NCBI GenBank assembly: GCA_006247105.1
Contig: CM016927.1
Span: 248,001 to 312,000, forward strand
DNA from: Giardia muris
Taxonomy: Eukaryota > Fornicata > Diplomonadida > Hexamitidae
Length of the DNA: 64,000 bases
Direction of reading: 5' to 3'
Position 1 is the stretch's first letter. Every line of letters begins with the position of its first letter. The translations under genes and the position numbers were made by a program. Below, one piece after another: positions 3,507-18,777 of this stretch. The notes beneath the pieces are model-generated. The model worked only from the letters and a program-made list of their open reading frames with translations. It was not told the DNA's origin and did no database searches.

Positions 3507-6500
3507 ATGCCGGTGACAGGGGTCAAGGTCGCGGTCCGGATCCGCCCCTTCAACGATCGGGAGAAGAAGGAGGGCGCGGCCCTGTGCGTCGACATGCCCG
3601 GGGGCGGGGTCGTGGCAATCGAGGACAAGGGCCATGAGACGCGCTTCACCTACGACCACGCGTACTGGTCCCACGACAACAGCCGGCCTCTGGCGACTCA
3701 GGAGACGGTCTACAAGGATATCGGAGAGGCGGTCCTCGACAACGCCCTCGAGGGCTACAACTACACCCTCTTCGCCTACGGGCAGACGGGATCTGGGAAG
3801 TCCTATTCAATGATGGGGTCCTCTGACGAGCCGGGGATCATCCCCCGCGTCGGATGCGCCCTCTTCGAGCGGGTCGCGGCAGCGGGGAGCGATGGGCCCA
3901 CCTTCGAGATCACGTGCTCCTTCCTCGAGATCTATAATGAGAAGCTCGCCGACCTTCTCGTCCCCCGGGCGAACCAGAAGGAGCTGAAGATCCGCCAGGA
4001 TCCAAAGACTGGGATCTTCGTCTCGAACCTCTCCAGCCAGGCCGTTGCCAGCTACGACCAGGTCTCCCGCCTCATCGCCCTTGGAGACAAGAACCGGACC
4101 GTCGCCTCGACGAACATGAACGCGACGAGCTCTCGTTCCCACTCCGTTTTCACGCTCGTCGTCACCCAACGAACGGAGCTCACGAACGACGCGGGGGAGT
4201 CTGTCGGGACCCACGTCAAGAAGGCCCAAATCACCCTCGTCGACCTTGCGGGGTCCGAGCGCCAGGACAAGACCGGGGCGACCGGGGACCGCCTCCAGGA
4301 GGGCATCAACATCAACCAGTCCCTGACGACCCTCGGACGCGTCATCGAGGCCCTTGCGTACAACGCGACCCCCGCGGGCCAGAAGAAGCCCCAGCACGTC
4401 CCCTACCGCGACTCCCAGCTGACCTACCTCCTCCAGGACGCCTTGGGAGGCAATGCTATGACGTGCATGATCGCTGCCATCTCCCCCGCCTCGACCAACT
4501 ACGACGAGTCCCTCTCGACCCTCAAGTATGCCGACCGCGCGAAGCAGATCAAGAACACCGTCTCGAAGAACGAGTCTGCCCAGGAGCGTTACATCAAGGA
4601 GCTTGAGGACCGAGTCAAGGAGCTCGAGGCCCAGCTCGCCGCCGGTGGGGTCCTCCCGTCTGAGGGTGGAGAAGCGAACTCAGACGATGAGACTGCGAGT
4701 AATTCTGCTTCACGCCTAGACGATGTTATTGAGGAGTATAAGCGGATGCTCTCCGACATGTCTGCAGACTATGAGGAGCGACTTAAACAGACTGCTGAAC
4801 AAAGTAAGGCTCTCGAGGACAACCTTGAGAAGCTTGGCGTTATGACTGAAACGCCGAAATTTGCGTATCTCCTCTCTCTCAACGAGGACCCGCTTCTATC
4901 CGGAGCTCTTCGCTACAGAATCGTCGACTCTGAGACCGTTGGGACGGACGTCTTCAAAACGGTCTTCGGCTCGATGCTCGTTGAGAATGGGGAGTACAAC
5001 TCCTCTGTTGTCCTTGCCGGAAAGCTCGGCGTTGATCCACAACACTTCGTGATCCTATACCATCCGGATTCGACGTTATACGAGCTTGTGTGCATCTCCG
5101 AGGACCAACCCTTGTTTATTAATGGTGACTACCAACTCTCCGACATGGAGCCGATCACTCTCAATCATGGAGACTTCATTCGCTGTGGAGATGGAAATGG
5201 ATCGTTTTATGCGTTCGTGAACCCCGCACTTCTCGAGGAACAGCCCTTGTCTGTTGCAAGCCTATATGACCAGGCGAACGAGCAGTTCGTTAACAAGAAT
5301 GGCATTCTCAATCCACTTAATAAGCTTCCTATTGGATCGGGGGCTGGTCCTGATTCTGGAGCGAACGGTCCTTCTTCTGGCTCCGTGGAAGAGCTCACGG
5401 AGAAGCAGCAGAGAAAGCTCGAGGAACGCGAGAGATATCTCACCGTTCGCCGCATGATGGATGACCTCTTTCCGGTACTTTGCGAGGCCGGCCAAATTGC
5501 TCGCTTTTTCGAGGTTGGGATGAACTTCGAGCTCGATTACATGCCAGGGATCGCCCAGGGGCGCCACGGTTACCCTGAGATGAGCTATGACGTAGGGGTG
5601 ACGGTTCTTCGTCGCGTCTATAACCCTGCTCTCCGTGTTCATCTTGAGGACACCTATCGTTGGAGCGTTGAGAAGTTCGGGTGCCGGCTTCAAGCCATGC
5701 GTTGGGCCTATTCCAAGGCGATGGAGCTTGGGGATAAGCAGCAAGCTCTTCGTGCTCTACTCGACAAGATTGATACCGACCCGACCTGTGATTTAGAGTA
5801 TCCGTTTGATAATCGCACTGATATCGACCAGGCTGTCGGATCTGGCGAGGGGGCGACGGAAGATGGCTATGACTCGCTAACCCACTTCATTGGACAGGCG
5901 CAGATTAACGTTTCGAAGCTGCTTTCCTCCCACACCATCTCTCAGCAGGCCATGCACATCATGAACCCGTATACAAACGAGGTTGTCGGGGAGGCAGAGA
6001 TTTCCGTCACAATTCCGAACCCGTGCCAGCATGACGGGTTTGAGTGTGAGGCATTTGCAGACCGGCACATCGAGCCTGGGCTCCCCTGTACCCTTCGGTT
6101 CAAGTTCGGGAGGATTTATGGGGTCAAACCGCGGTACAACTCCCGTGTCCATGCACTCGTTCACAAGCCACGCTTCCTGGGCCTAGCGAATGTTGACCGT
6201 CCCAGGCGTAAGCTCTCCCTTAGACAGGAGGATGCGTTCCGCAAGCACCTCCTCAATAGCGGGCGTGCTGTCTCGACGCCGTTTGCACTTGAGACGTCAA
6301 TCAACCCGCACCTCAACAACCACGTGGATCTTCACATCCCGCTGATGACAACGGTTGGGGCCGATTTCCTCGCGAAGCATCCGATCTCCATCTCCTTCTA
6401 CGGCTTCCATACGCGCGTCCTGCACCAGATTCGTCGCTCTCCGCTTTATGACATCGCGGATAATAGACTTGTCATCCATCAGAAGGACATCATGATGGTC

Positions 6501-6590
6501 AAGACAAAGAACTCGACTGAAGAGCGCGATGGCCGGGCGGCCAAGGTCTGCTCCGAGTTCATCTTTGTCGACATCAATGGGCTCAAGTAG
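3507..6590 (+). CDS. Kinesin-3 family motor with FHA domain
   Basis: A plus-end-directed microtubule motor of the KIF1/Unc104 type. The motor domain covers residues 5-350: P-loop GQTGSGKS at 92-99, switch I NATSSRSHS at 205-213, switch II LVDLAGSER at 244-252, and the kinesin-3 style end YADRAKQIKN. A neck coiled coil follows (about 358-380 and 405-440). The phrase AYLLSLNEDPLLSGALRYRI near 460 is the conserved kinesin-3 lead-in to an FHA domain (about 480-575). The C-terminal half (620-1027) resembles the KIF1-type stalk/tail region, including a stretch after a long charged helix, but I see no PH domain. The ATG is preceded by CCAAAAA, supporting this start. Length 1027 aa is shorter than animal Unc104 proteins, in line with loss of a PH tail. 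All motor residues look intact, so an active motor for vesicle or axonemal transport is expected. Confidence 0.95.
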   Translation: MPVTGVKVAVRIRPFNDREKKEGAALCVDMPGGGVVAIEDKGHETRFTYDHAYWSHDNSRPLATQETVYKDIGEAVLDNALEGYNYTLFAYGQTGSGKSYSMMGSSDEPGIIPRVGCALFERVAAAGSDGPTFEITCSFLEIYNEKLADLLVPRANQKELKIRQDPKTGIFVSNLSSQAVASYDQVSRLIALGDKNRTVASTNMNATSSRSHSVFTLVVTQRTELTNDAGESVGTHVKKAQITLVDLAGSERQDKTGATGDRLQEGININQSLTTLGRVIEALAYNATPAGQKKPQHVPYRDSQLTYLLQDALGGNAMTCMIAAISPASTNYDESLSTLKYADRAKQIKNTVSKNESAQERYIKELEDRVKELEAQLAAGGVLPSEGGEANSDDETASNSASRLDDVIEEYKRMLSDMSADYEERLKQTAEQSKALEDNLEKLGVMTETPKFAYLLSLNEDPLLSGALRYRIVDSETVGTDVFKTVFGSMLVENGEYNSSVVLAGKLGVDPQHFVILYHPDSTLYELVCISEDQPLFINGDYQLSDMEPITLNHGDFIRCGDGNGSFYAFVNPALLEEQPLSVASLYDQANEQFVNKNGILNPLNKLPIGSGAGPDSGANGPSSGSVEELTEKQQRKLEERERYLTVRRMMDDLFPVLCEAGQIARFFEVGMNFELDYMPGIAQGRHGYPEMSYDVGVTVLRRVYNPALRVHLEDTYRWSVEKFGCRLQAMRWAYSKAMELGDKQQALRALLDKIDTDPTCDLEYPFDNRTDIDQAVGSGEGATEDGYDSLTHFIGQAQINVSKLLSSHTISQQAMHIMNPYTNEVVGEAEISVTIPNPCQHDGFECEAFADRHIEPGLPCTLRFKFGRIYGVKPRYNSRVHALVHKPRFLGLANVDRPRRKLSLRQEDAFRKHLLNSGRAVSTPFALETSINPHLNNHVDLHIPLMTTVGADFLAKHPISISFYGFHTRVLHQIRRSPLYDIADNRLVIHQKDIMMVKTKNSTEERDGRAAKVCSEFIFVDINGLK

Positions 6591-6632: not shown

Positions 6633-8537
6633 CTAGGGCTCGGAGAACACGGCATCTACCCGCTCGTCAATCTCGAGGTAAACCCGACTGAACATCACGT
6701 ATGCGTGGCTCTGGCGTAGGAGTCGAAGAAGCTCTGGGAAGACGCACCGCTCCTCGAAGGTCGTCGCTGTCGAAAGAGACATCGGGTATGCCACTGGCTC
6801 GGTAAGCCGACAACCAGGCACGATGATGCGATGGGAATCGAGCTTCCGAAGCTTCGAGAGGAGTACGCCTTCATCTGGGACACCAAAGGCGGTCCGAAGG
6901 GCAAACCGTGCTACAAGGATGACGTGCACAACTCTACTATTTCGATCTCGGGGCGGCTGATACGCTGCGAAGCTGATCGTCTCGAGCTCGCGGAGAAGCC
7001 CGGACGTCTCAATTGTAGCCAAGCACACGTCCGGACTAACCGGGCCATACTCGATGAGGGACATAAGGATCCGCGAGGCAAGATAATGGACACATGTCGC
7101 ATTGGGGAACTTCTCTAGCATCTGGACGGCGATGCGATGAAGCCCACAAGAGACGAATGCCCGAGCGAAATGAACAACTCCTAATCCCAATGGGACTCCA
7201 GCAGCCTGAACAACGGCCACAAATGAGATGTCGGGTGCTCCTCCGGCCCCAGTGTCTCCAGAGTCCGGTAGGGCGGCGGGAGTCGTTGGAGAATAAGAAT
7301 ACGGATCGGTAAGAATGATACTATTGAAGGTTTCACGAAAAGAGTCGCGACGGGGCGCCAGAGAGTTCCGGACGTCTGCCGCTATCGATAGGACCCTGGC
7401 GGCCAGGCGGAGGAGGACGACGACACCGAAGGAGACACTTCGGGCAAAACGGCCTTGAAGGATCTCGAGCTGGTGGGGGATTCTTTGGCAAAGGCGCGCC
7501 AGTGCTACATGAATGGGGAAGTACATCTTTTCATAGTCATCAATGGGGGCGATACCTAACGGCGTGAGCTGTGGCTGATCTGATCCGGCATAACACCGCT
7601 CCAACTCCTCCCTTCGGCGGCCCACCACCGCTTCAGAGAGAGAATTCAGCTCTTCCAGGTGCACGTTATATATCCCAGCCTCCTGGACGCATGTCATGCT
7701 CATGCAGCAGAGAATAAGATCACCAATGACCTCGATGCGAGATTGCGCCTCCGGCTCCGTAAACTTGGTCTCGAGCAGAAAGGAGAGGAAGCGTGGGAGC
7801 TGGGCGTGCACCTGCTCGGCGACGGCCGGGAGGCGCCCAATAACGATGACGCACAAGAGCTGGGCGAGAGCCCCTGCATACTCTGTTGAGATAGTGACGT
7901 CGACAATATTCGCGGCTACGACGTCAATGATCCCGACATCGCAGACAAAGCGAGCCACCTCCTCTGCGATCTCCGCCTTCCGACTAGAATCGTATAACAG
8001 GAACGAAAAGGCGTCCATCACGTAGGAGTCGCATGCCATCTGCAGCCAAAGGGCCAGATACTCGCGCCGCTCCCGTAGGAAGGAAAGGATTGAAAGCAAC
8101 CGTTTGGTCGACCACATAAGAGATTTGAGGACCTGCCCGAAACTGCGAGAGATGTGCTGGAACCTCCTCGGGACCTCGTAGTGGCCCCGTGGGAGAAGTG
8201 TCGAGTGGCGCCGCAGGCTATCGAAGGGAATGGAGAGAAGCCCCGGGGTGTCCGTGATGACGGAGAGAACTTGACTGATATTCTCACACGCCTGGACGAC
8301 CGTGATGGCGCAATTCGCCTCTTCCTGGTCACAATCATCCCGGAAGATGAGAGTAAGCAGCTGGGCGAGTGTCGTGGGGGTTTGCAAGTACTCGATCAAG
8401 AGCTCCTCTCGGCACCGGAGCTGGAACGCGATTCCATCGTGTGCGATGAGTGCGGCAAGGTTGTCGTTCCGGATGAGCTCCCCGAGCTCGTCTCCTTCGG
8501 ACTCCTCGCATGTGGGGTCCTGAGGACATAGAACCAT
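6633..8537 (-). CDS. SAPS-domain-like protein (PP6 regulatory subunit type)
   Basis: An all-helical 634-aa protein. Residues 20-65 (LAALIAHDGIAFQLRC, then LLIEYLQTPTTLAQLL) follow the SAPS-domain opening in which a short 'L..LL..e...QEC...N..Li.FL..P..l..L' pattern occurs, and 75-190 keep the following order of ACE-like, 'Sk..g.ll' and 'll.fL......' helices. SAPS proteins (yeast Sap family, human PP6R1-3) bind the Sit4/PP6 phosphatase catalytic subunit. The C-terminal part (about 480-540, with SLIEYG) resembles the same region of the next gene, so the two look like tandem paralogues. Its start lies at CC-A6-ATG. No catalytic motif is present. The assignment rests on pattern recognition by eye and needs a profile search; an unrelated armadillo-type helical repeat is the alternative. 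Confidence 0.6.
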   Translation of the reverse strand: MVLCPQDPTCEESEGDELGELIRNDNLAALIAHDGIAFQLRCREELLIEYLQTPTTLAQLLTLIFRDDCDQEEANCAITVVQACENISQVLSVITDTPGLLSIPFDSLRRHSTLLPRGHYEVPRRFQHISRSFGQVLKSLMWSTKRLLSILSFLRERREYLALWLQMACDSYVMDAFSFLLYDSSRKAEIAEEVARFVCDVGIIDVVAANIVDVTISTEYAGALAQLLCVIVIGRLPAVAEQVHAQLPRFLSFLLETKFTEPEAQSRIEVIGDLILCCMSMTCVQEAGIYNVHLEELNSLSEAVVGRRREELERCYAGSDQPQLTPLGIAPIDDYEKMYFPIHVALARLCQRIPHQLEILQGRFARSVSFGVVVLLRLAARVLSIAADVRNSLAPRRDSFRETFNSIILTDPYSYSPTTPAALPDSGDTGAGGAPDISFVAVVQAAGVPLGLGVVHFARAFVSCGLHRIAVQMLEKFPNATCVHYLASRILMSLIEYGPVSPDVCLATIETSGLLRELETISFAAYQPPRDRNSRVVHVILVARFALRTAFGVPDEGVLLSKLRKLDSHRIIVPGCRLTEPVAYPMSLSTATTFEERCVFPELLRLLRQSHAYVMFSRVYLEIDERVDAVFSEP

Positions 8538-8561
8538 TTTTTTGGCGGGCTCATCTCTCGT

Positions 8562-11234
8562 TTACATCACACCTTCAGAACCCGTCGATGGTGTGAGATA
8601 CTGCTCCACAAACCGCTTCACGAACTTACTCGTGAGAATGATCTCACAAAGGGCGCTCGAATGCTCCAAGGACGTCTGGCGAAGGCTTTCGAGGGATGTT
8701 GGTGCAGTGACTGGCCGTGGCGTCTCACTTCGGACGTATGGGGTCGGGTCTGAAGCGAGGTGGAGCAAGTCCTTCGCGAAGTTGATTGCTCCCGCCAGGA
8801 CGCTTGTACTGCAATACTGATCTGTTGTGGTGAGGCGATCGAGTAGTCCAAAGACCCGGGAGTTCCGGAGGAAGTTCGTTAGCATGGGCGGATAAGTGAC
8901 CCCGTACTCCAGAAGAGAGCGGCAGACCAGGAAGTACCGAAGGTGAAAGATGGTGCATGTCGGCCAGCGCAACGAGAACCGCAATGCACTCAACAGGAGG
9001 TCTGTCTGGAGTATCCGTTCGCACACTGTGAAGGGCGAGATGTAGATGACTATCTCTCCGGGGAGCCTGTACGTGTCCACTATTGAGATGGCACTTCGCC
9101 GAGACGCTCGGGGGTTCGTCGTAGGGGGTGTCGGAGACGTTATCATCCCATATCCAAGTGCTTTGAGACCATAGGATAGAGGTACATTGAAAGACGACGC
9201 TGGAGAGCTATCCGATGGAGGCTTTTGGTTTCTAACCGTATAAAGCCGCGCCCGAGAGTCAGATGTGATGCAACAGAGACGCGCAACGAAATCCAGCCAG
9301 ATAACCTGGTCAGCAGGGTGGATCTCACTGCGCAATGCAACAGCAGCATGATCCACTCCTTTCAGAACCCATCGAAATGCCTCATGATATGTCCCATAAT
9401 TCCGAGGAGTCGCGGCGGCGAGCTCCTCCGCCGAGTTCTCGGACAACGCCGAGGAGATCCTATCTCGTGATCGATAAGATGAGGCGATCGTCTCTGTCAC
9501 CATAAAGCTGGCGATACAGACGATAAGGTCCAGAATCACATATCTTCGATCCCGAGGCGTACCATCCTGAGCACAAGCCTGAATAAGCCGCCCGGTTGCC
9601 TCCAAAACCCTCCCGCTCAACAGAGGTACGTTAGCCGTCAGAATATGTGCAAGAATATGCATGGAACCGTCAAAATCCCGGTATGGCGTTGCAGAGTCTG
9701 TCGCACACGTTATCAAGCGCGAGATGAGCCCTAAATCGTCTGAAAATCGCTCGAGTAGCTGGTAATGAACCGTGCGACGGCATTCGCTGTCCACAAAGAG
9801 TTTCCGTAAGGCCTCGTTCATGTCTGGAACTCCGATGGATCGGAACCAAAGGTCCAAGTAATTACGTCGATCACGAAAGAGGTTAAAGAAGAGATCCAGC
9901 CGATTAGGAGAAAGGATGATGGCCTGGAAGAGCTTTGAGACGGCTTCGAGGACCCGAGAATGCCGCTTCACGGATAGGAAATAATTCTCACTCTTCTCCG
10001 CCTCCGTGACAAAGGCCTCCAGACTCTGGAAGACGGGCTCGAACGCTTCTGGACGTTGGAGCAGGGCCTCAAGGACGACGGAACCGTACCCGCACTCGCT
10101 GAAGACCGTCACGGCCTCCCGTTGTTTTCGGTGCATCTCGAGCTCAGTGCCCTGGGAGTCAAGAGGGATGAAGGCAATAGAGATGAGACGATCCAATACT
10201 CCGTCGGACTTGAGGTAGTCGACGATCCGCGTCATCTGCGAGAAGCACTCGTCGTTGAACTGCTGGAGGCCAAGTAGACCCTCCAAGTCATCACGCCCCA
10301 TCAGGTCGAGCATGACCTCGACTTCGTTTCGCTCGGGCTCTGGGTCTGGATCATGCCCGCTACCCTGTGTTTCCTCCCCTTCCATTGGTTCATCGTCAAC
10401 GATGACATCAAGACTGAGGTGTCTATTTGACATGACACGGTTCCAGGCCGAAGTGACTTGCGGGTGGCGAAGGGCCTGCTCCACTAACGGCTGCGTCTCA
10501 GCTTGGCCAAGCAGCTGGCCGATGAACTCTGCTAGGGCCGAAGAGTAGCCTTCGATCAGCTCCGGAGGCGTAAAGTCTCGCGTTTCTTGCCTCTCAGCGG
10601 GGAATACCGCCCTTCGCCACGCCATCTCGAGCAGGACCAGGCCAAGCGCGTAGATATCATCTCCAGGCGTTTGTTTATGGCCCAGAAGGACATTAGGCGA
10701 CGCATATCCCCAGGATGGCGCAATAGGCTGGACGATTCGTGCGTCATCCAGGCAAAACCCATATTCGGCCAACTGAATCTTACTGTTGTCTGTGATGAGA
10801 ATGTTCAGCGGTGAAAGGCGGCCGTGCAGGAGTGGGAGGTCGTCGGCGATCCCCTCTTTGATTGGGTCGTGCAGGTAGTCCAACCCGTGCAGTATCTGCG
10901 CAGCGGTCTCCCAGATCAAGTTTTCAGGGATCCGGACGCTCTGCTCCGCATATGTGGCGATCAAATCTGCGAGGGCACCGTTCTCCGGGAGAGACGTAAT
11001 AACGTGAAGGTGGCGCTCCCCGGCCTCGTAAACCTGTGCAATAGTAACTAGTGACGGGCTCGTGAGCCTATAAAGCTGACGAACGTCGTCCAGGAGCGAG
11101 GCGTACGCCTCGTCACTCGCCGCGCAGATGTCGACCAGGAGGCACTCCACGTGCATCGTCCGATCCTCGACGATACTCTGACGTCCGAGGCCCGAGGGCC
11201 CGGCGGTCTGGACGAGTGCATAATCACTTTCCAT
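8562..11234 (-). CDS. Pseudokinase fused to SAPS-like domain
   Basis: The N-terminal 280 residues have the order of a protein kinase but lack the catalytic residues. The HRD loop reads HGRLSPLN (137-144), so the catalytic Asp and Lys are replaced; DFG reads EYG (157-159); no Gly-rich loop or VAIK lysine is visible. The activation-loop end YASPNVL and the F-helix DDIYALGLVLLEMA are kept, which shows a real kinase fold, closest in feel to the Giardia NEK expansion. Residues 310-800 form a helical region with the SAPS-like order (LLGLQQFNDECFSQ, then IVDYLKSDGVLDRL) and a C-terminal SLLEYG segment matching the neighbouring SAPS-like protein. The ATG at 11232-11234 is chosen because the longer frame begins with TTG; it overlaps the end of the upstream gene by 11 bp. 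A scaffold linking kinase-type recognition to a phosphatase is the inferred role. Confidence 0.75.
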   Translation of the reverse strand: MESDYALVQTAGPSGLGRQSIVEDRTMHVECLLVDICAASDEAYASLLDDVRQLYRLTSPSLVTIAQVYEAGERHLHVITSLPENGALADLIATYAEQSVRIPENLIWETAAQILHGLDYLHDPIKEGIADDLPLLHGRLSPLNILITDNSKIQLAEYGFCLDDARIVQPIAPSWGYASPNVLLGHKQTPGDDIYALGLVLLEMAWRRAVFPAERQETRDFTPPELIEGYSSALAEFIGQLLGQAETQPLVEQALRHPQVTSAWNRVMSNRHLSLDVIVDDEPMEGEETQGSGHDPDPEPERNEVEVMLDLMGRDDLEGLLGLQQFNDECFSQMTRIVDYLKSDGVLDRLISIAFIPLDSQGTELEMHRKQREAVTVFSECGYGSVVLEALLQRPEAFEPVFQSLEAFVTEAEKSENYFLSVKRHSRVLEAVSKLFQAIILSPNRLDLFFNLFRDRRNYLDLWFRSIGVPDMNEALRKLFVDSECRRTVHYQLLERFSDDLGLISRLITCATDSATPYRDFDGSMHILAHILTANVPLLSGRVLEATGRLIQACAQDGTPRDRRYVILDLIVCIASFMVTETIASSYRSRDRISSALSENSAEELAAATPRNYGTYHEAFRWVLKGVDHAAVALRSEIHPADQVIWLDFVARLCCITSDSRARLYTVRNQKPPSDSSPASSFNVPLSYGLKALGYGMITSPTPPTTNPRASRRSAISIVDTYRLPGEIVIYISPFTVCERILQTDLLLSALRFSLRWPTCTIFHLRYFLVCRSLLEYGVTYPPMLTNFLRNSRVFGLLDRLTTTDQYCSTSVLAGAINFAKDLLHLASDPTPYVRSETPRPVTAPTSLESLRQTSLEHSSALCEIILTSKFVKRFVEQYLTPSTGSEGVM

Positions 11235-13392
11235 GCAAGAATTTTGCAAGTGCCTGATTCAGACTCTCAAGCGGGTTCTGTTCGTCTTCGAGCGCGCTCT
11301 GGGCTACAGGCTGGTTGGTTGTACGCTCAATAATGACGCGGGGCGTAACCGGCGCGCGCTGCGGCGGCTGGATCTCGACACGCGAGAAGATCGTCTCCAA
11401 TGGTTCTACAGCCGTTGTGGTCGGTTCCTTCGAGTCTCCTATTCTCTCCCACGTGTGCGGCCAGCGTCTATGGGTTAATTTGGGGGCCTCGAGATGTAGG
11501 AGTCCTCCTTCGGATTCGTTGACCTCTTTATCTTGAGAGGATGTTATGGGCTCGGATGTGGCCCTTTCGACCGCAGAGGTGGTATAGAAGGCCGCGATCG
11601 GTTCTACACATCCGGGCGGCGGTGGTGGCATCCCGATAGGCGGTTTGAACTGAAGGTCGATGACGCCTGCGTTTGACTCTGATGTATCGGCGGTGCAGAT
11701 GCTAGCGGGGCGTCTGAGACCTGAGTGGTGCTCAGATAATGCTTGTTCTGAGGCGACGAAGGAGAGCGAGCTATAAATCTGGCGTGTTGGTGCAGTTTGT
11801 GGTAACGGTAAGTCTGGATAACGTTCCAAGTGGGTGTGTTGTGTGATCCGGAAGCGTGGGGGTGGTCGACAGCAAAGACGTTGCTTCAGAAGCGTCTGCG
11901 TATTCTCCTTGACTCTTTGGGCGGTGTTAGGAACACGCGGATAGCGAACAGAGAAGCGATATGGTGAACGAATACGATCACTCTCGACCTCAATTGGAGA
12001 GAGCGGGGCAGACATTGGGCGAAGGCGTGAGAGCTGTCTCGCATGGGAATATGTGGCTGGGGTTCTAGCCGAGAGGAGTCGTGCCGTCCGAGCCATGAGC
12101 CAACGGTATTTAGTACTTATGGTGGCTGGTCGAGCCCTTTGGCCTCCTTCCTCGGGTGTTTGCGGAATTTCCGTGGCCGTGATAGGCACATCTTGTCCTT
12201 GACGTTGTGTGACACCACTGTTGAGCAAGGCCGTAGCCGCCAGCGATGTTTGAGAGTATGAGAGGACTTCGGTCTTTTGTCTTGTAGAAAGAGGTGTTGG
12301 GATGCGTGAACCAGCCCAATGGGACGATTGGCGTTGTCGTGAGGCACTGAGATTGAGGTCTGTTCCCGTTTCCATCGTCGCGTCCTCCTTGTCACTCTCC
12401 TCCGCCCTTCTGGCCTGTGCCGCCTGGTAGATGTCTAGAAGCACGTCCGTGGTTATGAGTAAACGAGGGTGGCTGTTATTGAAGAAGACTGGATGGTACG
12501 TTAAGCATTGAGGAATATCACGAAGATTTGGTATGTACAACGTATCCGCGTCGTCATTGCCCTCCAAGGAGTTCCGGATGCAGTCTGACATACCGACCAG
12601 CTCGGCGTAGATCTCTCGGTTCTGGTAAAGAGAAGTGGCAGAGACCACGTAGGCCTCGAACAAGTCGAGAAGCGAATGCATGTCGGCCTGTAATCCGGCG
12701 GTGAAGGATGTCGGAATATCCGCAAGGTGTGAACAAGCATTGAACCTTACACGCCCAGTGAAGCGATCTAGGCAGACATGATCGAAGACGCCATTGAGGG
12801 TGATACCAACCCCATAAAGGACCGTCAGAAGCCTTAAGAACTCGTAGAGAAGGCCTAATACAAGATGTGGATACTGTGGAGTCTCCGCAGCTCGCAGGAG
12901 GTCTAAGACTGTCAGGATCGGAGTCAACCGGACGTAGACCTCATAGTCTAAGAAGACGTAGGCACGTTCCCCATCCGAGGGGTAGAAAAGGATGCGTGGA
13001 AGAATGATGACGGCATTCCGTGTCCGAAGAGCCTCGCGTGCGGCAGAAACGATCCCAATCACTCCTTCGACACGCATGAGGTCTATGACGGTATCAGAAA
13101 GCTGGAAAAGGACGTACCGTTGCTCGGTCTCAGTATCGATGCAGATTAAGACCGTCTCTTCAGTATCTATGCTTTCCACCAGGTTATCGAGGAAGTGAGA
13201 GGCCCTGTACTGCCGTAGACGCAAGCGTCGAAGAGTCTGTAGCTGTTGAGAGGCATAAAGCCGTTGGTACTGTGTACGCCCTTCGTTCCTGAGGCCAAGC
13301 TGTCGAAGTGAGAGGCCAGAGGCCCGAACTCTTTGGCAGAGCGACTGGAGGTCAGGGGGCCGGACGGCCTGCAAGAGGGAGAGGAAGGACAT
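11224..13392 (-). CDS. Kinase-fold-like protein with disordered C-terminus
   Basis: A 722-aa protein not clearly assignable to a family. Residues about 70-300 show a faint kinase-like order: a beta-rich N-lobe (VLFQLSD without lysine), hinge-like YVFLDYEVYV, an E-helix (LLYEFLRLLTVLYGVG), a loop FDHVCLDRFTGRVRFNA where HRD and DFG would fall, and an F-helix-like DMHSLLDLFEAYV. None of the catalytic residues is present. Residues 340-722 are Pro/Ser/Thr/Arg-rich and look disordered. The longest frame starts with GTG; the first ATG is at 13390-13392, and the frame stays open another 40 codons upstream without ATG and without an A-rich tract, so the start is uncertain. Its 3' end overlaps the pseudokinase gene by 11 bp, suggesting the two act in one pathway. 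Confidence 0.7.
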   Translation of the reverse strand: MSFLSLLQAVRPPDLQSLCQRVRASGLSLRQLGLRNEGRTQYQRLYASQQLQTLRRLRLRQYRASHFLDNLVESIDTEETVLICIDTETEQRYVLFQLSDTVIDLMRVEGVIGIVSAAREALRTRNAVIILPRILFYPSDGERAYVFLDYEVYVRLTPILTVLDLLRAAETPQYPHLVLGLLYEFLRLLTVLYGVGITLNGVFDHVCLDRFTGRVRFNACSHLADIPTSFTAGLQADMHSLLDLFEAYVVSATSLYQNREIYAELVGMSDCIRNSLEGNDDADTLYIPNLRDIPQCLTYHPVFFNNSHPRLLITTDVLLDIYQAAQARRAEESDKEDATMETGTDLNLSASRQRQSSHWAGSRIPTPLSTRQKTEVLSYSQTSLAATALLNSGVTQRQGQDVPITATEIPQTPEEGGQRARPATISTKYRWLMARTARLLSARTPATYSHARQLSRLRPMSAPLSPIEVESDRIRSPYRFSVRYPRVPNTAQRVKENTQTLLKQRLCCRPPPRFRITQHTHLERYPDLPLPQTAPTRQIYSSLSFVASEQALSEHHSGLRRPASICTADTSESNAGVIDLQFKPPIGMPPPPPGCVEPIAAFYTTSAVERATSEPITSSQDKEVNESEGGLLHLEAPKLTHRRWPHTWERIGDSKEPTTTAVEPLETIFSRVEIQPPQRAPVTPRVIIERTTNQPVAQSALEDEQNPLESLNQALAKFLHGK

Positions 13393-13551: not shown

Positions 13552-14628
13552 ATGACGAACGCCGATGTGATACGTGAGTGCGTTCTGTATCGACGCGAGA
13601 GCGAGTCTGAGACCGATGGAGATATCGTCCGTTGTACCGCGTGTCCACACTATTGCAAGATCAAGCCCGGGAGGGTGGGAATCTGCGGAGTAAGATATAA
13701 TCGTTTAGGGAAGCTTTATCTCTCGGTATGGGCCAAGCCGAGTGCCATTCATGTGGACCCCATGGAAAAGAAGCCATTATATCATTTCTACCCCGGCCAG
13801 AGGATTTTGAGCCTTGGGACGATAGGTTGCAACTTCAAGTGTTCCTTCTGCCAGAATTGGCAGCTCAGTATGGAACGGCCATCCCCCAAGGACATTGAAG
13901 AGAGCTGCTTCGACCTTGCGGGGAGAGAGCTCTTAACACCAAAAGACGTGATCGCATACTGCCAGCGACAGGATATCAGGTTCATCGCCGCCACATATAA
14001 TGAGCCGACCATCTGGTTTGAGTATTCCTTGGACCTTGCACGATTAGCAAAAGACCATGGGATCAAGTACGTGTACGTCTCCAACGGCTTCACCAGTACA
14101 GAGCAGCTCGAGCAGTTGAAGGATATCATCTCCGCGATCAACATTGACCTGAAAGGCTTCAATGACGCCGTCTACCGCAAGGTGATGCATGGGTCCATAG
14201 AGCCAGTCAAGAACTCCATTCGATGCCTATATAACAGCAACGTCATAGTTGAGGTGACGACCCTTGTCGTCCCTGGCCTCAACGACTCCCCCGAGGAGCT
14301 ACGCGCCATTGCAGACTTCATCGTTTCAATTAGTCCCGATATCCCTTGGCATGTCTCAGCCTTCCATCCCGACTACCAGATGCAAGATAGACCCCCCACT
14401 TCGCCTCAGACGATCGAGTTGGCGTTGGATATTGGAAAGCAGGCTGGGTTGAAATATCTCTACGCGGGTAATGTCCGTTTGGGTAGGTACACTGATACCT
14501 GTTGTCCGAAGTGTAAGACCATCCTTGTTAAACGTCCCACCTCCTTCTTTGGAGAGGTCGCGGTCGACTCCCTCAATGGGAATAGATGTGCCAAGTGTGG
14601 GGAGACCATCTATGGTTGCTTCGCTTGA
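13552..14628 (+). CDS. AmmeMemoRadiSam-type radical SAM enzyme (PflA-like)
   Basis: A radical S-adenosylmethionine protein. The iron-sulfur motif CNFKCSFC (C93, C97, C100) sits in GCNFKCSFCQNWQ, the form used by pyruvate-formate-lyase-activase-like enzymes and by the AmmeMemoRadiSam family. The N-terminal knuckle C28-x2-C31-x3-C35-x9-C45 (with HYCKI and GICGVR) and a C-terminal Cys cluster (CCPKCK plus CAKCGETIYGC) also match the latter family, whose exact reaction is not settled. In the barrel, ATYNEPTIWFEY, VSNGF, IDLKGFND and HVSAFHPDY are all intact. Length 358 aa is close to prokaryotic homologues, pointing to acquisition from an anaerobic prokaryote or ancient retention. An oxygen-sensitive enzyme suits an anaerobic parasite. 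The start is preceded by TATTGTAAAAGAAC. Confidence 0.88.
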   Translation: MTNADVIRECVLYRRESESETDGDIVRCTACPHYCKIKPGRVGICGVRYNRLGKLYLSVWAKPSAIHVDPMEKKPLYHFYPGQRILSLGTIGCNFKCSFCQNWQLSMERPSPKDIEESCFDLAGRELLTPKDVIAYCQRQDIRFIAATYNEPTIWFEYSLDLARLAKDHGIKYVYVSNGFTSTEQLEQLKDIISAINIDLKGFNDAVYRKVMHGSIEPVKNSIRCLYNSNVIVEVTTLVVPGLNDSPEELRAIADFIVSISPDIPWHVSAFHPDYQMQDRPPTSPQTIELALDIGKQAGLKYLYAGNVRLGRYTDTCCPKCKTILVKRPTSFFGEVAVDSLNGNRCAKCGETIYGCFA

Positions 14629-15100: not shown

Positions 15101-15817
15101 TCACTCCTTGATCTGAGAGCTCGTTGGAGTATTGTATCCCGACGAGGTACGAGATCCTCTACGAGACGCAAGGCCGCGTGACCGAGATAGTTGCAAAGCT
15201 TTCCCGAGCTTTGTGGTTGAGCTCTGAGTGAAGATGACCCCTAGGTCGGAAAGAAGGTTTCGGATGTCCACCAGTGCACGTTCGGGTGCATCGGTTTCAC
15301 ATTCGACCTCAACCATTCGGCCCGAGGTTGGAGGCATGAAGATCACGCTATCAACCTCGAGGGTATGTGCCTTCCACTTGTATGTACGCCTCGTGGTCTT
15401 GAAAGAGGCGATTTTGAAGAGAGGCCCAGTGATGGTCTCTCCAAGGACCGTTGGGATGTCACAGACGTGATTGCAGAAGAATGGCGCAATGCTCTTCCCA
15501 CTGGGATCGTTCATCAGCCGCTCATAATCCGCCTCGGCGATTACAGTCTCCTCCTCGACGGCACGGAAGACTGCCCCGGACGCCTCCGACTTGGCCTTGA
15601 CCGTGGCCGTACACTTCGTTTCCCCATTGGACTCGCACTTCCGAAGTCGAAAACAGCTCTTGAGAGCGGCAAGCTGGTTGTCCTGGTTGTCGAAGTACGT
15701 GTTTGTCAAGGTCTTCGTCCCGAGACTTTCCCCCGTGCGGTTCAGCTCGGCAATGAGGTCCGCGATCTTGTCGGGATCGCACAAGGTTAGCTTTACCTCC
15801 TGCTCGATGTTGGGCAT
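15101..15817 (-). CDS. CYTH-domain triphosphate tunnel protein
   Basis: The N-terminus MPNIEQEVKL carries the ExExK signature (E5, E7, K9) of the CYTH/triphosphate tunnel metalloenzyme superfamily. Later acidic and basic strands fit the tunnel: TNTYFDN, FRLRKCE, CTATVKAKSE, FRAVEEE, EVDSV and MVEVECET, so charged positions line up in the alternating strand pattern. Members hydrolyse triphosphate or tripolyphosphate, thiamine triphosphate, or cap RNA 5' ends (the yeast Cet1-type RNA triphosphatase is a relative). Which substrate applies here cannot be read from the sequence; an inorganic polyphosphatase role is the simplest guess. The last 30 residues are Ser/Arg-rich. The gene diverges from the Trm5 gene across 21 bp. 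Confidence 0.8.
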   Translation of the reverse strand: MPNIEQEVKLTLCDPDKIADLIAELNRTGESLGTKTLTNTYFDNQDNQLAALKSCFRLRKCESNGETKCTATVKAKSEASGAVFRAVEEETVIAEADYERLMNDPSGKSIAPFFCNHVCDIPTVLGETITGPLFKIASFKTTRRTYKWKAHTLEVDSVIFMPPTSGRMVEVECETDAPERALVDIRNLLSDLGVIFTQSSTTKLGKALQLSRSRGLASRRGSRTSSGYNTPTSSQIKE

Positions 15818-17124: not shown

Positions 17125-18777
17125 ATGCTGAAGTGTCATCTCTTTCAATCCTGCCTTCTCGTGACCTTCATGGTCATCGGCGTCCTTCTTGCCATCTGCT
17201 GTTGTATGTGGCTCCTGGCCGTGTCGGATTTCCACGCCGAGTTCGACATTTTCGGACATCTTTATTTGATCAGCCCTTTGCTCTTTGGTCTCTTAGTTCT
17301 TCTCTGCATTTACCTTCTACTCGTCACCCGAGCGTATCGTGAGCTTCGTGCTTCGCGTTACTCGTCCCCTTCCCGTCTGGGTCTCACCTCCCTTATTCTC
17401 TCCGATATTGGTGGCTGTTTCATTCTAGGCTTGCTCTTCGCATTATGCGTCTACTACTTCGCCGCGTTGGCCCCAGACGTCCCTTCACTCATTCAACCCT
17501 ACTTGACGCCTCTTGGGGAGACGCTTTCCGAGGGGCTCCAGATCAATTGGTATTCAGAAGAGAAGGTTGGGTCCTTCAGCTTGGAGGTCAGTGAGGGGGT
17601 CTGGGAGGAGCGTGAAGTCGTGCGGAACGACGGGTTCAACCATGTACGCCTAGACTCGCTTATCCCAGGCCGGACGTACCGCTACCGTATTCCTGAGATT
17701 TACGGTGGCGAGTATGAGGTCCGCATCCCCGCACTTGATGGGGAGGACGAGACCAGTATCACCTCTGACACCATTCGCGTTGCCATCTGTACCGATCTTC
17801 ATGCCCTACCAGGCGCTAGTAGAGCGTACCTTCCGGTCCTTCATGAGATCAAACCGGTCTTGGGCCTTGTGCTTGGAGACCTCGTTACTACTGGGACGAG
17901 CCTGAGCCAATGGCGTCGAGCTTTGCAAAGCAGTGGCCCCTTTGGCTATTTCAATCGCGTCCCCGTCCTGGCCCTTAGTGGGAACCATGAGACATATGGA
18001 TGTACGGCCAAGCCCGTTGTGCGCAAGTGGATGTTATCTGCCTTTGCTCCAAAACGGGAGGAGGGTTCCTCGGCTATCCCCAATGACATTCTATCATATA
18101 TCCCAGAGGAACTATGGGATTACTACGGTGAGGATTTCGCTCCTCTCGATGAGGGGTTTTACCATGCGATCGTACTCAGGGACGTTCTGATCATCGCGCT
18201 CGATTGCATGGATGATGTGTTTCGGACGCGGCACTATAGGGCACATACCGGGATGCTTTTATCTCCACGGCAAATCTTGTGGCTATCTGATACCTTGAAG
18301 AAGTATGAGAATGATCCGCGAATCAGGTTTCGCGTCATCGCGGTACATGTCCAGCTATATACCTCGACCCATGGGCCAGCACAGCAGCCTCTGACGGCCT
18401 TACTCGAGCCATACATTTGCCGCTATAAGATCAACCTCGTTCTCAGTGGGCACAAACACGCCTTGGAAGTCGTCCATCGCCAGTCCCGATGCCTTGAGCT
18501 TGGGTACGGTCAGCATAGCTTCTATGCCGTCACAGTCAATAGCCTTGGAGGTCATCCTTATCCCGTTGCTCTCCCCTTGTTCCTCAAGTCGCGTCAATGG
18601 CGGAATATCATGGACCCTGGGGACACTCCCTTGGTGGGCTATGGGATGGAGGACCTTATCCATGGAGAGGCGATCTATGGCCATTGTGTATTAGAACTGA
18701 GACCGGACGGACTTTGGCTCCAAGCCTATCGCCTTCGGACTGGTGAGCTTGCATATGAGGTATGTCTTGCCGACTGA
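17125..18777 (+). CDS. Membrane-anchored purple-acid-phosphatase-like metallophosphoesterase
   Basis: Three hydrophobic segments near residues 11-32, 45-67 and 86-112 anchor the protein, followed by a catalytic part. Before the catalytic core, HVRLDSLIPGRTYRYRIP resembles the fibronectin-like domain of purple acid phosphatases. The metallophosphoesterase motifs are complete: D224 and H226 (CTDLH), GDL at 251-253, GNHE at 286-289, VIAVH ending at H408, and GHKH at 442-445. These ligands bind two metal ions. The longer frame begins with TTG, so ATG at 17125 (preceded by TTTATTTTTAT) is used, 550 aa. Only 17 bp separate it from TRM5. A likely role is a phosphatase on the plasma membrane or an internal membrane, with the catalytic domain on one side; its substrate is unknown. 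Confidence 0.85.
   Translation: MLKCHLFQSCLLVTFMVIGVLLAICCCMWLLAVSDFHAEFDIFGHLYLISPLLFGLLVLLCIYLLLVTRAYRELRASRYSSPSRLGLTSLILSDIGGCFILGLLFALCVYYFAALAPDVPSLIQPYLTPLGETLSEGLQINWYSEEKVGSFSLEVSEGVWEEREVVRNDGFNHVRLDSLIPGRTYRYRIPEIYGGEYEVRIPALDGEDETSITSDTIRVAICTDLHALPGASRAYLPVLHEIKPVLGLVLGDLVTTGTSLSQWRRALQSSGPFGYFNRVPVLALSGNHETYGCTAKPVVRKWMLSAFAPKREEGSSAIPNDILSYIPEELWDYYGEDFAPLDEGFYHAIVLRDVLIIALDCMDDVFRTRHYRAHTGMLLSPRQILWLSDTLKKYENDPRIRFRVIAVHVQLYTSTHGPAQQPLTALLEPYICRYKINLVLSGHKHALEVVHRQSRCLELGYGQHSFYAVTVNSLGGHPYPVALPLFLKSRQWRNIMDPGDTPLVGYGMEDLIHGEAIYGHCVLELRPDGLWLQAYRLRTGELAYEVCLAD

Follow-up and report, generated by a model that had tools for sequence, protein, structure and literature searches.

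Does a kinase fold joined to a phosphatase adaptor exist in Giardia muris, and what might such a protein do? The question was raised by three consecutive genes in a 64,000-nucleotide stretch of the genome (GenBank assembly GCA_006247105.1, contig CM016927.1, positions 248,001 to 312,000), which we call the window and in whose coordinates the features of this locus are given; all features of the three genes lie on the minus strand. The initial annotation had read them as a SAPS-like protein, a pseudokinase fused to a second SAPS-like region, and a kinase-fold-like protein. We located the three open reading frames (ORFs) in a row as described, with 634 (P1, 6633..8537), 890 (P2, 8562..11234) and 722 amino acids (P3, 11224..13392). 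SAPS proteins are helical-repeat adaptors that hold the PP6/Sit4 phosphatase in yeast and man. Judged from sequence, this genome encodes at least ten fast-diverging SAPS-like proteins, P1 and P2 among them, and P2 fuses a pseudokinase, probably of NEK type, to a SAPS-like domain in one open frame.

A ten-member helical family and its link to SAPS

The genome searched comprised 9.74 Mb in 52 contigs. Whole-genome searches with L033 (an ORF from the Pfam search described below), P1 and the C-terminus of P2 yielded nine ORFs; a tenth member, L034, was spotted beside L029, and L028, L034 and L031 as further queries yielded no additional member. The members were 760 (L033), 634 (P1), 890 (P2), 692 (L031), 1185 (L027), 1059 (L028), 759 (L029), 1017 (L034), 662 (L030) and 690 (L032) amino acids long. 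Each of nine members was scored on a profile of the other eight, with 500 shuffles as the control, the best of which never exceeded 11.4 bits. The leave-one-out scores were 285.1 bits for L033, 256.7 for P1 (best shuffle 9.5), 224.0 for L027, 160.7 for P2, 152.9 for L028, 132.9 for L031, 132.5 for L029, 121.6 for L030 and 90.9 for L032. The family profile spanned residues 16-624 of P1 (6666-8492), and the leave-one-out match of P2, with 153.6 bits over profile positions 23-656, placed its SAPS-like domain at residues 302-882 (8589..10331).

A profile of the eight members other than P1 and P2 matched these two proteins at 267.5 and 138.5 bits, respectively, while the best of 500 shuffles reached 6.3 and 2.7. 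Because these scores and the leave-one-out scores exceed those of the shuffles, the shared order of the two helical parts is far beyond chance; by profile comparison, P1 and residues ~302-882 of P2 are collinear homologues in the ten-member family. The initial annotation had pointed to this shared order and to a matching C-terminal segment, and both held: in an alignment of ten rows, SLIEYG of P1 and SLLEYG of P2 fell in one segment, as the last residues of a conserved C-terminal SAPS-like core segment in each protein (7044..7127 in P1, defined by alignment with the core of human PP6R3 and the family; 8901..8987 in P2, also by alignment). This alignment (A4) contained the nine members and P0004, a close relative of P1, with L034 left out, and the members were 18-27% identical to its first row. 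L034 scored 62.4 bits on the A4 profile (best shuffle 8.9), and its pairwise genome search found no family member, which makes it the least secure member. L034 and L029 themselves lie head to tail with a 35-bp overlap (L034:101-3154 and L029:2456-4735; G000:C2:1507455-1512753), a neighbouring pair like P1 and P2. L027 (L027:2615-6172) carries a C-terminal tail of ~490 residues that looked disordered by eye.

We compared the family with SAPS (PF04499) through human PP6R3. The reference sequence was entered by hand rather than taken from a database; it scored 393.8 bits on PF04499 and agreed with PMC2765987 at all seven positions that the paper names. The ten-member profile matched PP6R3 at 47.7 bits, with 6.6 for the best of 500 shuffles and -0.5 for the reversed sequence. 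The signal persisted at 31.5 bits when P1 and P2 were removed (best shuffle 8.0) and at 17.6 bits with P1 and P2 alone (best shuffle 1.6), and the A4 profile gave 39.7 bits (best of 2000 shuffles 4.2) and 94.8% in hhalign. The match extended over the first ~210 residues of PP6R3, while the alignment of the C-terminal core was set by visual inspection and by the register of the Pfam match. When the Pfam SAPS model was run on the six-frame genome, no ORF matched at E 0.001, and at E up to 10 a single ORF appeared, the family member L033 (E 0.0056). Scanned as a protein, L033 scored 17.3-17.5 bits (E 0.0025), with residues 503-541 on profile positions 314-352 at equal lengths. Its His530 and the core His of PP6R3 (residue 48 of the human fragment, whose residue 24 is profile position 317) both lie at profile position 341, if no gap precedes. 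P1 and P2 aligned to the core segment that holds this His. Additionally, an aromatic-Trp pair resembling the 'MFW' with which SAPS proteins start was present within the first 45 residues of five of the ten members, a count made without a chance control. The AlphaFold2 (AF2) model of P1, of low confidence, resembled helical-repeat chains including p115, many about equally; a p115-type helical-repeat fold has been proposed for SAPS (PMC2765987).

Several results weigh against this kinship and against whatever is built on it. The Pfam SAPS cut-off of 25.6 bits was passed by none of the ten members, all of which were scanned, L033 being the best at 17.5 bits; P1, P2 and six other members gave no Pfam SAPS match. 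A profile of P2 and L028 alone did not detect PP6R3 (0.5 bits, best shuffle 0.7), and no match was found in a pairwise genome search with PP6R3. A SAPS match in L030 (E 0.23) was rejected as chance: its residues 11-72 fell on profile positions 72-131, out of register, given that profile position 2 is already PP6R3 residue 129. Letter shuffles lose helical periodicity, for which the PDB scan alone provides a control; in that scan, the E limit of 10 admitted six matches to A4, the best of which, at 23.7 bits (E 0.00013), lay below the 39.7 bits of PP6R3. The top three were designed helical repeats, and none of the six was a natural ARM/HEAT protein by name. The AF2 models of P1 and P3 were of low confidence.

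On balance, the profile scores indicate that the family is a distant relative of SAPS, a kinship that most members have diverged too far to reveal individually. The SAPS-like identity proposed for the first two proteins is supported by the 47.7 bits of the ten-member profile, though P1 and P2 give no Pfam SAPS match. The proposed comparison with SAPS itself had a divided outcome: the family profile exceeded the shuffles on PP6R3, while Pfam SAPS found neither P1 nor P2. The family shares with the known SAPS proteins (human PP6R1-3 and yeast Sap4/155/185/190) a collinear N-terminal half, the core segment with its His and, in half of its members, the aromatic-Trp pair near the start; the P1 model, of low confidence, resembles helical repeats. 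In contrast to them, it lies below the Pfam cut-off, mostly does not keep the PP6-contact acids of PP6R3, counts ten members in one small genome, and includes two members whose N-terminal domain derives from a kinase (in one of them by profile evidence alone).

The pseudokinase of P2 and a probable kinase-derived N-terminus in L028

The N-terminal domain of P2 covers residues 1-276 (10407..11234, its end placed by eye), in which residues 45-243 matched Pfam Pkinase (PF00069) at E 3.1e-17 and 63.3 bits, compared with a cut-off of 31.7. We aligned it with 11 kinases from the same genome, which were its best matches rather than a random sample, and with P0002, a close relative of P2. Both P2 and P0002 had Leu at the position of the beta3 Lys, Asp at that of the helix-C Glu, HGR at HRD, EYG at DFG and SPN at APE, with the catalytic-loop Asn retained. 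The equivalents of K72, D166 and D184 were all replaced (K to L, D to R and D to E, respectively). The degenerate HRD loop, HGRLSPLN (10803..10826), lacks the HRD Arg and Asp and the next Lys and keeps the Asn; the degenerate DFG motif is at 10758..10766, and P0002 is the same at both sites. The kinase domain reported in the 890-residue protein is therefore genuine by Pfam, all three activity-defining residues are gone from it, and by its motifs it is a catalytically dead pseudokinase.

A Trp before the central helix was common to all 14 rows of the alignment, namely the 11 Giardia kinases, P2, P0002 and L028. L056, the best-scoring kinase of the genome for P2, had NEK2, NEK7 and NEK1 as its first PDB matches; those of P2 itself were CaMK1 and CDK2 chains, weak, as a decayed domain might give. 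Descent of the P2 domain from NEKs is likely, not proven. P2 resembles the NEK pseudokinases of Giardia in lacking catalytic residues and in the Trp shared with the 11 kinases compared; it differs in its partner domain, as ankyrin repeats and coiled coils are overrepresented among Giardia NEKs (PMC3218828), whereas P2 has a SAPS-like domain.

The pseudokinase is joined to the SAPS-like part by an acidic linker, residues 277-301 (10332..10406). The fusion that the initial annotation had suggested is supported by the Pfam kinase match on one side and the leave-one-out family score of the C-terminal part on the other, and we consider it very probable that the homology and the fusion both hold. 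P0002 is also 890 amino acids long and is 86% identical to P2 over its full length (85% over the P2 region searched); P0004 likewise equals P1 in length (634 amino acids) and is 88% identical to it. The contigs that carry P0002 and P0004 both measure 8005 bp and are presumably identical. Database searches with P2 and P1, which reached close relatives only, found nothing beyond the proteins themselves and these single relatives among 7992 and 7996 scored candidates. No published record of a SAPS-kinase fusion or of a Giardia SAPS was found by title among the papers listed, with subscription journals, supplements and gene databases outside the search, and the word 'SAPS' was absent from the main text of PMC7641422 and PMC13322205. 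We conclude that the fusion is a new architecture and that the family is a SAPS-like expansion hidden below the Pfam cut-off.

Pseudokinases followed by helical repeats are known from SCYL, ULK4 and Vps15. P2 might accordingly belong to one of these families, its likeness to SAPS being that of a common solenoid shape. Such an assignment would agree with the generic kinase families that alone were returned by Pfam for P2, and with the P1 model, which is about equally close to many helical-repeat proteins. It is opposed by the grouping of the P2 helical part with kinase-free paralogues at 138-161 bits, by the Trp that the P2 kinase domain shares with 11 of the 11 Giardia kinases compared (its best matches), the best of which is NEK-first in the PDB, and by the PDB matches of A4 given above, headed by designed repeats and devoid of named natural ARM/HEAT proteins. 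We regard this origin as very unlikely. It is similarly improbable, and if anything more so, that P2 is read as one frame and yet works as two proteins through an internal translation restart: in-frame Met codons do occur at residues 308 and 312, just past the linker, but the single 890-codon frame has the same length in the 86% identical P0002, and the family contains a likely second kinase-derived fusion.

This second case is L028, in which the A4 profile match starts at residue 269. Its ~255 N-terminal residues matched the kinase profile in hhalign at 69% (E 4.3e-5, 198 columns), while 60 shuffles reached at most 4%. A kinase hidden Markov model gave 13.0 bits in two short pieces (best of 1000 shuffles 2.6). 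No match to this part was obtained by pairwise search with the P2 kinase domain or by Pfam, and the kinase motifs were gone. Its identity to P2, 31% in a three-row global alignment, is not a test of kinship. L028 is likely a second fusion with a more decayed kinase-derived N-terminus. In the family tree, no fork reached starred support, and P2 and L028 stood apart; L028 paired with L027 at 87/94, and at 84/88 when L034 and PP6R3 were left out. Because the tree has no starred fork and does not group P2 with L028, one fusion event cannot be told from two.

The third gene and the surroundings of the locus

The third protein had been described as kinase-fold-like, and this description was not borne out. 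Against a kinase profile of 12 rows, P3 scored -1.8 bits, where the best of 1000 shuffles reached 6.7; hhalign with the 13-row kinase alignment gave 0.1%, and there was no Pfam kinase match. An AF2 model of residues 1-330 from the single sequence had a mean predicted local distance difference test (pLDDT) score of 41.1, too weak to judge. Comparison of this model by Foldseek and VIA-align gave no protein-kinase domain among the best 50 matches listed, at a model confidence too low to exclude one. The order of strands and helices in the model looked loosely kinase-like to the eye, which is no evidence at such confidence; with no sequence signal either, the kinase fold is not supported. The database search, again with close-relative reach, returned P3 itself alone among 7995 scored candidates, and there was no other match in its own genome. 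P3 is a separate protein not placed in any recognised family.

P1 and P2 are separated by 24 bp, and P2 and P3 overlap by the 11 bp that had been noted (11224-11234). Overlaps averaging 21 bp involve 441 genes of G. muris (9.5%), and the median intergenic distance is 37 bp (PMC7641422). Because short gaps and overlaps are normal in this genome, the tight spacing of the three genes is no evidence of an operon-like unit. On the P1 side, a 1027-residue kinesin motor protein is encoded convergently on the plus strand (3507-6590). Beyond P3 lie genes for a radical SAM protein (13552-14628, plus), a CYTH-domain protein (15101-15817, minus) and a 550-residue ORF (17125-18777, plus) with a metallophosphatase match, hydrophobic N-terminal stretches by eye and no match to four PPP references.

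Phosphatase binding and the possible role of the fusion

The genome contained 19 metallophosphatase matches. Seven ORFs shorter than 420 amino acids were placed in a tree with four human references entered by hand; L044, the longer ORFs L041, L043, L045, L046 and L047, and the loci L048-L053 were left out. By starred forks, L035 was PP1 and L036 was PP2A; L039, L040, L042 and a tandem pair were PP2A/PP4/PP6-like without resolved orthology. The tandem ORFs (L037 and L038, G000:C4:224993-226545) are 311 amino acids each and are sisters in the tree.

The simplest reading of the P2 architecture, and a plausible one, is a phosphatase holder with a dead NEK targeting head. The SAPS-like part would bind a catalytic subunit of the PP2A/PP4/PP6 class; the head would position the phosphatase complex by attaching to the targets of NEKs, be they sites on the cytoskeleton, fellow NEKs or NEK substrates, with no phosphorylation of the target. 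This explanation starts from the homology, the one-frame fusion, the loss of catalytic residues and the size of the family, from which we infer the phosphatase partner, its binding and a role of the head in targeting; as a whole, we give it an even chance. The partnership has parallels in STRAD-MO25 and SCYL, where a pseudokinase and a helical-repeat scaffold act together, either as subunits of a complex or as parts of one polypeptide. P2 shows the same pairing, but no sequence relation to them is shown, and its repeats belong to the SAPS-like family.

The evidence on the phosphatase itself lends this reading little weight. None of the seven ORFs joined PP6 in the tree. At the PP6-contact positions of PP6R3, acids were present in two of the ten members at 204, where gaps make the alignment uncertain, in one at 205, in six at 259 and in one at 262; P1 and P2 each keep the contact acid at 259 only. 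In PP6R3, each pair of contact mutations cuts binding by 25-35%, and both pairs together cut it by 80% (PMC2765987). Because a PP6 orthologue is unplaced and the contact acids are mostly not kept, phosphatase binding by the SAPS-like part is put forward from homology, and we judge it to be evenly balanced. Localisation is unfavourable to a simple cytoskeletal address for the head: the Neks placed on the cytoskeleton were the four active proteins, and a cytoplasmic position was found for the single inactive Nek examined (PMC3218828).

These same observations lend themselves to another explanation, in which the family had SAPS or a similar ARM solenoid as its ancestor but no longer binds a phosphatase; P1 and P2 would then be scaffolds, for example of the flagella or ventral disc, and the P2 pseudokinase a NEK-derived scaffold piece. 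The very low identity between members, the absence of most PP6-contact acids and the unplaced PP6 orthologue would fit such a role, as would the inactivity of most Giardia NEKs (PMC3218828) and the location of many G. intestinalis NEKs at cytoskeletal structures (PMC7641422). However, the segments in common with human SAPS, namely the N-terminal region and the His-bearing core, are among those conserved in the family, and several PP2A/PP4/PP6-like catalytic subunits are kept in the genome. A pure scaffold is a serious possibility to which we assign less than even weight.

Returning to phosphatase targeting, a more specific form of it holds that dead NEK domains were grafted on SAPS-like subunits to send a PP2A/PP4/PP6-class phosphatase to NEK sites or to NEKs; this we consider rather unlikely. 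Because SAPS3 recruits PP6 to AMPK in mammals (PMC10011557), a kinase-directed role of SAPS has support outside Giardia. The NEK family of Giardia is large, mostly inactive and mostly of unknown function (PMC3218828, PMC7641422): in G. muris, NEKs account for 71% of the kinome (PMC7641422), and 139 of the 195 NEKs of G. lamblia WB lack a key residue (PMC3218828). A NEK pseudokinase joined to a phosphatase-type adaptor would give at least some of these proteins a concrete job. The ten-member family indicates that a whole class of regulators can sit under the Pfam cut-off in this lineage and, if dead NEK domains do direct a phosphatase, this family missed by domain databases would hold a built-in counterweight to the NEK expansion.

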